This document shows, piece after piece, positions 31,110 through 32,359 of a DNA stretch of 36,132 nt (position 1 is the first letter of the stretch; each line of letters starts with the position of its first letter). The position numbers were made by a program, and so were the translations under genes. The notes below the pieces were generated by a model. That model worked only from the letters and a program-made list of their open reading frames with translations, searched no databases and was not told where the DNA came from. Source of the DNA: Flavobacteriales bacterium (lineage in GTDB: Bacteria; Bacteroidota; Bacteroidia; NS11-12g; UBA955); assembly GCA_947463095.1 (NCBI GenBank), contig CANHRE010000022.1, positions 1-36,132 on the forward strand. The letters run 5' to 3'.

Positions 31110-31170
31110 CTCGCGGCGGTATATGGTGAAAAAACGAATCAACGGGGCAAAGGTAGGTTCAAAGGACAAG

Positions 31171-31214
31171 GGATAAGTGATAGGTGGTAAGTGGTAAGTG
31201 GTAAGTGGTAAGTG
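31171..31214 (+). repeat. Heptamer array (GGTAAGT/GATAAGT)6
   Basis: ggataagtgataggtggtaagtggtaagtggtaagtggtaagtg. Confidence 0.95.
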
Positions 31215-31571
31215 CCGGTCACCGAGCAGCTTGCCCCCTAAGCGCAGCGACAGGGGGAGTCGAGGTGCCTCGGCATTTGGCGTCGGCTTGCGGCGTTTAA
31301 CGCCTCCCATCATTTGAGGCCGGTTCTTTGGGGGGAATGGATAATGGATAATGGATAATGGAAAATGGAAAATGGAAAATGGAAAATGGATAATGGACAA
31401 GACCTCTGCTGTCATCCTGAGCTCATTTTTGAATATATGCTTATGACAGGGGTCTGTGCCAACCTGATGAATCCTTAAGCATGAATTTTCTCTTACTTTT
31501 TCCTTGATGAAAAAGGATGCAAAAAATCAAGGCTGCTTGGATAGTGGTAGGGGATAAGTGGTAAGTGGTAA
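31212..31571 (+). repeat. Higher-order repeat unit 1 (360 bp)
   Basis: Runs from gtgccggtcaccgagcagcttgcccccta to the next identical start; contains the hairpin module, eight 7-bp (A[T/A]AATGG) units, a ~155-bp linker and short TAAGTGG units. Confidence 0.95.
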
Positions 31572-31917
31572 GTGCCGGTCACCGAGCAGCTTGCCCCCTA
31601 AACGCAGCGACAGGGGGAGTCGAGGTGCCTCGGCATTTAGCGGCGGCTTGCGGCGCTCAACGCTTCCCATCCTCTGAGGCCGGTTCTTTGGGGGGAATGG
31701 ATAATGGATAATGGATAATGGATAATGGAAAATGGATAATGGACAAGACCTCTGCTGTCATCCTGAGCTCATTTTTGAATATATGCTTATGACAGGGGTC
31801 TGTGCCAACCTGATGAATCCTTGAGCATGAATTTTCTCTTACTTTTTCCTTTATGAAAAAGGATGCAAAAAATCAAGGCTGCTTGGATAGTGGTAGGGGA
31901 TAAGTGGTAAGTGGTAA
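31572..31917 (+). repeat. Higher-order repeat unit 2 (346 bp)
   Basis: Near-identical to unit 1 with a few substitutions; six rather than eight ATAATGG-type heptamers account for the 14-bp length difference. Confidence 0.95.
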
Positions 31918-32085
31918 GTGCCGGTCCCTGCTGTCATCCTGAGCAGCTTGCCCCCTAAGCGCAGCGACAGGGGGAGTCGAGGTGCCTCGGCATTTAGCGG
32001 CGGCTTGCGGCGTTTAACGCCTCCCATCATTTGAGGCCGGTCCTTTGGGGATAATGGATAATGGATAATGGAAAATTGAAAATTG
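31918..32085 (+). repeat. Higher-order repeat unit 3 (truncated / mosaic)
   Basis: Starts gtgccggtccctgctgtcatcctgagcagcttgccccctaagcgcagcgacaggggg..., keeps the hairpin module and three ATAATGG units plus two aaaattg variants; the linker is absent. Confidence 0.9.
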
Positions 32086-32190
32086 ATGATGAATTTGGTC
32101 TCCGCTTGCCCCCTCTGTGGTTTGATAAACTCACCATGACACGCAGCGAGACACTGTGGGGGTAGGGGAGCTTGTCGATAGGTTCAAAGG

Positions 32191-32260
32191 ATAAGTGATA
32201 AGTGATAAGTGATAAGTGATAAGTGATAAGTGGTAAGTGATAAGTGATAAGTGGTAAGTG
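32191..32260 (+). repeat. Heptamer array of 10 units (ATAAGTG/GTAAGTG)
   Basis: Ten consecutive 7-mers, pattern A A A A A A G A A G at the first base. Confidence 0.96.
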
Positions 32261-32359
32261 CCGGTCCCTGCCGTCATCCTGAGCCCCTACCGGGCTGCGA
32301 AGCCGGTTGGTAGGGAGGTTTGTCATGGTGCATGCCGATTACCACTTACCACATATCCC

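Follow-up and report, generated by a model that had tools for sequence, protein, structure and literature searches.

The intergenic block between two genes of an uncultured Flavobacteriales bacterium, studied in a 36,132-nucleotide stretch of contig C22 (hereafter "the window"), is best explained as a lineage-specific nested repeat cluster that derives from a MITE and was multiplied by recombination between heptamer arrays. We regard this explanation, taken as a whole, as likely. The underlying observations comprise MITE ends with target duplications, dispersal through the genome, a short orthologous spacer in a sister species, heptamer differences between units, and a pseudoknot with covarying helices. 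MITE fragments, minisatellites and palindromes are stacked into a tandem higher-order repeat in a Bacteroidota genome, and such repeats explain why genomes of this kind split into contigs. Most of the block is unremarkable repeat debris, and it is the conserved pseudoknot that merits further study.

The flanking genes, both on the reverse strand and assigned by domain search, encode a MATE-family transporter (PF01554; 29781-31133, start codon approximate) and an ion-channel-domain protein (PF07885; 32360-33103), which is also the orthologous flank in the sister species. The gap of about 1.2 kb between them is filled by two complete units, a third that is only partial and a stub, and all features of the block are given on the forward strand. 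As an earlier note on this DNA had reported, the unit start GTGCCGGTC occurs exactly at 31212, 31572, 31918 and 32258, at spacings of 360, 346 and 340 bp, where 0.28 occurrences are expected by chance. In-register comparison together with the unit-start search delimits unit 1 (31212-31571, 360 bp) and unit 2 (31572-31917, 346 bp). The two are indeed colinear, with 98% identity across 231 nt when compared at an offset of 346 bp, and they carry eight versus six heptamers in their hepB arrays (56 versus 42 nt). The leading phrase TAGGTTCAAAGGA precedes heptamers at two sites, likewise as noted before, at the exact positions 31154 and 32179; the first of these (31154-31166) forms the leader of the block, and the sister spacer begins with TAGGTTC at the same point.

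The four-unit array of the earlier note holds for the block and its coordinates, but not for the completeness of its members. Unit 3 (31918-32120, by in-register comparison) is partial: its likeness to units 1 and 2 is confined to the first ~200 nt (74% ungapped), and in place of the linker it has another palindrome and a ten-copy heptamer array. "Unit 4" is the leading phrase GCCGGTCCCTGCCGTCATCCTGAGC followed by an unrelated palindrome (CCCTACCGGG..CCGGTTGGTAGGG; 32261-32325) and not a full unit. The linker is present in two copies instead of four. The motif "caccgagcagc", said to be replaced in units 3 and 4, is altered differently: in unit 3, CCTGCTGTCATCCTG precedes AGCAGC as an 11-nt longer variant.

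TRF reports six period-7 arrays and one period-346 array in the block. The heptamers fall into an A series, comprising hepA-1 (TAAGTGG, 5.9 copies by TRF; 31174-31214), hepA-2 and hepA-3 (three copies each by pattern; 31553-31573 and 31899-31919) and hepA-4 (GATAAGT, 10.1 copies by TRF; 32190-32260), and a B series, comprising hepB-1 (GATAATG/GAAAATG; 31336-31397) and hepB-2 (31696-31743), both detected by TRF and with eight and six copies by pattern, respectively, and the decaying hepB-3 (TRF; 32049-32091). The unit borders are located inside the hepA arrays, a position suggestive of unequal recombination. Two further arrays of the same kind lie in adjacent spacers of the window, at 28845-28897 (AAGTGGT) and, on the opposite strand, at 33261-33301 (ACCACTT). 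A 22-nt tandem repeat (TGTCATGGTGAGC..) lies at 33174-33253, and contig C119 (locus L030) has related TGTCATCCTGAGC units spaced 24 nt apart.

A genome of the same genus (G001) harbours the same two flanking genes in the same order, with 85% identity over window positions 30406-31164 and 82% over 32364-33102, and its spacer measures 162 bp versus 1,199 bp in the window. The G001 spacer also begins with TAGGTTC and continues with a short heptamer tract, TAAGTGGTATGTGGTAAGTGG. Since both spacers have TAGGTTC and a heptamer tract in common, the heptamer site predates the split of the two lineages; since the block is missing from that of G001, it was either gained in the window genome or lost in G001 after that split.

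In its own genome (G000; 2.6 Mb, 123 contigs) the block matches 60 places. The unit is thus not unique to the window locus, and the mosaic intergenic repeat family proposed previously was borne out: its modules occur in other arrangements at about 60 places. With the window contig left out, 18 of the 39 repeat clusters lie at most 500 bp from a contig end, where less than 5% are expected (p 3e-14). The family breaks the assembly, and the copy number of the block may therefore be underestimated. This strong enrichment, along with the fragmentation into 123 contigs, is what one would see if short-read assembly had duplicated or collapsed a dispersed repeat, in which case the tandem order or the copy number would be wrong. 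We consider such an artefact unlikely. Substitutions, heptamer number and the loss of the linker set the units apart from one another, so the assembler has not copied a single sequence; moreover, the flanks keep their synteny in the sister species, and contig C51 carries a second tandem pair of the window unit at its end (L009), so that the tandem form is not limited to one locus.

The origin of the linker becomes apparent when its copies are aligned. They begin sharply on the left with CACTGCTGTCCAAAACGTTTTT, immediately preceded by unrelated flanking DNA, and a search with CACNNCTGTCCAAAA revealed the opposite end on the other strand. The terminal inverted repeats of this genus-level MITE are CACTGCTGTCCAAAA on the left and the reverse complement CACATCTGTCCAAAA on the right; paired ends lie 377-663 bp apart and enclose no transposase gene. 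Exact 9-bp target duplications flank the copies at C4:86468-86844 (CTTTGAAAT), C17:29758-30420 (GTTTCGATT) and G001 C282:1715-2291 (GTTCCAGCT; L073), and near-exact ones with one or two mismatches occur at L017 and L040. An exact duplication is missing in 12 of the 15 non-redundant pairs, which indicates decay or rearrangement of the MITE copies. The copy at L073 interrupts a reading frame resembling an ORF6N-type DNA-binding protein.

The congener G002 contains a 1,341-bp element of insertion-sequence size with the same ends, in which remnants of DUF4372 (E 5e-16) and DDE_Tnp_1 (E 5e-7) lie in separate short frames, and on contig C91 of the window genome the same end sequence is followed, about 90 bp further in, by a DUF4372 remnant that carries an internal stop. 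Both remnants, in G000 and G002, are degraded, and no intact transposase was found. Judged from these sequences, the linker and the GC-rich arm constitute the interior of the MITE; paired ends, target duplications and transposase remnants between the same ends make a decayed IS4-family (DUF4372) insertion sequence its probable parent. Contig C22 contains no MITE end sequence at up to one mismatch, and neither terminal inverted repeats nor a target duplication were found at the block, which is therefore MITE-derived and not itself a MITE. Its descent is proposed from similarity of the interior: positions 31265-31333 (CTCGGCATTT..GGCGTTTAACGCCTCCCATCATTTGAGGCC) are homologous to the right arm of the second hairpin region of intact copies. 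Where intact copies have the MITE left end, the block has an imperfect palindrome (CTGTCATCCTGAGC...TTATGACAG; 31409-31450).

Two GC-rich palindromes are visible in the block, one of REP-like appearance at 31229-31258 (GCTTGCCCCCT..AGGGGGAG) and a second at 32104-32170 (CTTGCCCCC...GGGGGTAGGGGAG). The earlier note had read these as GC-rich hairpins, and their palindromic arms are evident, but their folding does not stand out from that of dinucleotide shuffles (z 0.16 for 31222-31340, -1.29 for 32096-32178 and -0.23 for 32261-32325). Elsewhere in the family, GC-rich palindromes break the MITE interiors of several copies at differing points. Together with the many module combinations, these interruptions could point to a self-standing mobile satellite or an actively rearranging module-exchange system, as that note had suggested. 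As a designation of the whole block this is improbable to a high degree, although the exchange of modules as such is plausible. The sharp ends belong to the MITE and not to the unit; the block contains no transposase, as was noted before, and neither a recombinase nor a RAYT or transposase is associated with it. The genome encodes a single RAYT-type Y1 transposase (Y1_Tnp, PF01797; C54:395-736, L044), which is flanked by different repeats, and mobilisation by a RAYT/REP system was considered unlikely on the same grounds. Beside the Y1 gene lie a tandem repeat of ~50 bp and palindromes (CCATCCCTACGGGATT) unlike those of the block.

For the MITE-derived cluster the simplest course of events would be the following. 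An IS4-family (DUF4372) transposase would once have moved the MITE in trans; the interior of the MITE is predicted to comprise an H-type pseudoknot with a second long hairpin behind it and, in a large share of the copies, a heptamer array. A MITE fragment devoid of ends would have reached a spacer that already held a short heptamer tract, perhaps brought in by recombination between its own heptamers and those of the spacer. Unequal recombination between heptamer arrays may then have multiplied the 346-360-bp unit in tandem, slippage would have altered the number of heptamers, and further palindromic repeats presumably joined the block. In many dispersed MITE copies an array of 2 to 9 heptamers directly follows the core, and the count differs between copies.

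The core of the linker is predicted to form an H-type pseudoknot of two interlocking helices, with compensatory changes in both. The family model consists of stem 1 (CTTTTxN/N'x'AAAAG), stem 2 (CTTGAN/N'TCAAG), an A-rich third loop and a coupled position reminiscent of a base triple. Among 229 distinct locus-and-core combinations, which were unselected but include own-genome copies and hence are not independent, each of the two stem-1 pairs that close the loop is of Watson-Crick type in 226 cases, with four and three pair types, respectively, and stem 2 is fully complementary in 211. A search with stem 1 only retrieved other loops, the downstream strand of which changes to match: CTTGAT pairs with ATCAAG, CTTGAA with TTCAAG, CTTGAC with GTCAAG and CTTGGC with GCCAAG. 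In 40 sequences chosen from the 229 for diversity, with visibly broken copies left out, 99.4% of the cells pair, and 8 of the 17 pairs have changed on both sides; none of 500 shuffles reaches this pairing, and partners slid out of register pair at 43-58%. Given how the 40 were picked, the count over 229 combinations is the fairer one. A protein-coding core was rejected as an explanation, as stem 1 and the loop vary while base pairing persists.

The last base of the third loop tracks the second pair of stem 1: it is A with A in 143 of 148 copies and G with G in 10 of 10 (uncorrected for relatedness), and where the second stem-1 base is C, 34 copies have A and 35 have G. As the model places this base beside the second stem-1 pair, the coupling looks like a base triple. 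Directly after stem 2, a second hairpin with a stem of at least 8 nt is found in 45 of 188 copies versus 1 of 188 with shuffled downstream DNA. Downstream of this hairpin many copies carry a short CCCACCGCAC / CCCAACGCACC / CCCACCCACGCG motif (L253, L107, L103). Rfam 15 yielded no match at gathering score in the window and sub-threshold chance matches only at 14 pseudoknot loci. Literature searches by motif letters returned primer coincidences only, and as most subscription papers were outside their reach, the term "undescribed" is provisional.

How widely the core occurs depends on the way it is searched. Its exact letters are found phylum-wide in the window genome only, a misleading result, since stem-agnostic patterns revealed a wider spread. 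Such a pattern specifies three elements, namely the loop, the AAAAG strand and ATCAAG further downstream, and allows any sequence in the 5' strand of stem 1. Cores with different letters occur in other families of the order, with 51 copies in G040 and fewer in G042, G044 and G047, and a reversed control pattern had no matches in the genomes of the order. Across the phylum, 60 of 396 genomes and 33 of 172 genera match, against about one control match in total. A wider scan covered named bacterial and archaeal genomes (84,980 in the set); among the matches listed are Bacteroidota and one member of the Neomarinimicrobiota, and these include Flavobacterium, Elizabethkingia, Pedobacter, Mucilaginibacter and Chitinophaga as well as Saprospiraceae, Bacteroidales, Balneola and Melioribacteraceae. 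The pattern also appears in seven IMG/VR contigs (L391-L397), which may be phage or misbinned bacterial DNA.

The carriers differ. In the window's genus the core lies between IS4-type ends, in G040, as judged from 33 aligned copies, between the candidate ends TTTAATGTTTCTCCGTTTGGATACACC and their inverse, and in G588, likewise from aligned copies, between the candidate end TTAGTGAAGTTTTCGAAATAA and its inverse; the latter two sets were placed by eye. If these ends are right, the same folded core would travel in several unrelated MITE-like elements. Tandem pseudoknot elements occur at 240 bp in G588 (C2:186, 426, 666; L256), at ~384 bp in G136 (C7; L224) and at ~330 bp in G151 (L223), and in these unrelated genera they echo the tandem form of the window. 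In G396 (C5, ~30-38 kb; L222) seven copies, all on one strand, lie within long spacers between genes that look by eye to be of polysaccharide type, among them sugar-nucleotide enzymes and a NusG-like frame. Integron attC-like cassette arrays came into consideration through the clusters on a single strand in G396, G124 and G151 but were set aside; in other genomes the copies are dispersed and occur in both orientations.

We tentatively propose, at a confidence somewhat short of even, that the linker core belongs to an undescribed, phylum-wide structured family, which consists of an H-type pseudoknot and a second hairpin, is itself the conserved and selected unit, is carried through the Bacteroidota in several MITE-like elements with unrelated ends and acts as folded RNA or single-stranded DNA. 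Should a functional RNA or DNA structure indeed be spread by transposons, a large family has been missed, and the motif is directly testable in the culturable carriers Flavobacterium, Pedobacter, Mucilaginibacter and Chitinophaga.

The copies in the window are a different matter. Copy 1 (31492-31532) has lost the outer stem 1, with AAAAAGGATG instead of AAAAAGTAAG, and copy 2 (31838-31878) has lost the outer stem 1 and also has a broken loop, with CTTTAT instead of CTTGAT, as seen in the aligned copies; by energy folding the window core has no advantage over shuffles. Because both copies are broken, the window spacer most likely has no dedicated function, and selection on the pseudoknot as folded RNA or single-stranded DNA probably operates elsewhere. 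The hairpins and heptamers might nonetheless form a functional array that, in the way suggested for REP/BIME elements, provides the adjacent genes with sites for termination, mRNA stability or protein binding. Such a role would suit the intergenic position, the resemblance to an intrinsic terminator of a reverse-strand hairpin followed by CTTGATTTTTTGCTTACTTTTT with its two T tracts, and a slight excess of convergent right neighbours (31 of 48 in G000 and G040; 61 of 103 in the genome contig set, p 0.08). It is nevertheless very unlikely, for the orthologous spacer lacks the block, neither pseudoknot copy is intact, the GC-rich hairpins fold like shuffles, and the bias in orientation is weak and varies from genome to genome. 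Terminator function as deduced from gene orientation was rejected, the signal being weak and inconsistent.

Several known systems share features with the MITE-derived cluster or its core. Like BIMEs and REP/RAYT systems (PMC2817692, PMC3733652), the block is a mosaic intergenic cluster of short palindromes, whereas a GTAG/CGTC tag or a link to a RAYT was not demonstrated for it. The core resembles the SAM-V H-type pseudoknot with its triple helix (PMC6061858) in having two covarying stems, an A-rich third loop and a coupled junction position; in contrast to that single-copy riboswitch, it is a dispersed repeat in MITE-like elements, has no Rfam match and is known from DNA sequence alone.

The closest parallels come from the same phylum. 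According to the part of its description that was available, BrickBuilt is a Porphyromonas gingivalis MITE with about 20 intergenic copies, IS-like terminal repeats and an internal minisatellite, the copy number of which varies between copies (PMC4596501). The element described here is likewise an intergenic Bacteroidota MITE with IS-like ends and an internal minisatellite of variable number. In the same part of that source, the BrickBuilt repeat measures 23 nt versus heptamers here, its ends are IS5-like with irregular target duplications versus IS4/DUF4372-like with 9-bp duplications, and a pseudoknot of this kind is not described; unlike BrickBuilt as portrayed there, the window block is tandem and has lost the MITE ends. 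Intergenic direct repeats of the heptamer TAACTGA are found in Beggiatoaceae, Cyanobacteria and Bacteroidetes, with short and repeat-free spacers in relatives (PMC4679880), and here, too, tandem heptamers fill long Bacteroidetes spacers, a relative has a short spacer, and contigs end in repeats. The motif differs, being GRTAAGT/GRWAATG, with TRF units TAAGTGG/GATAAGT and GATAATG/AATGGAA and no TAACTGA unit among them, and the heptamers lie partly inside MITE copies. The block thus fits two precedents, the minisatellite-carrying MITEs such as BrickBuilt (PMC4596501) and the heptamer-filled spacers of Bacteroidetes (PMC4679880).
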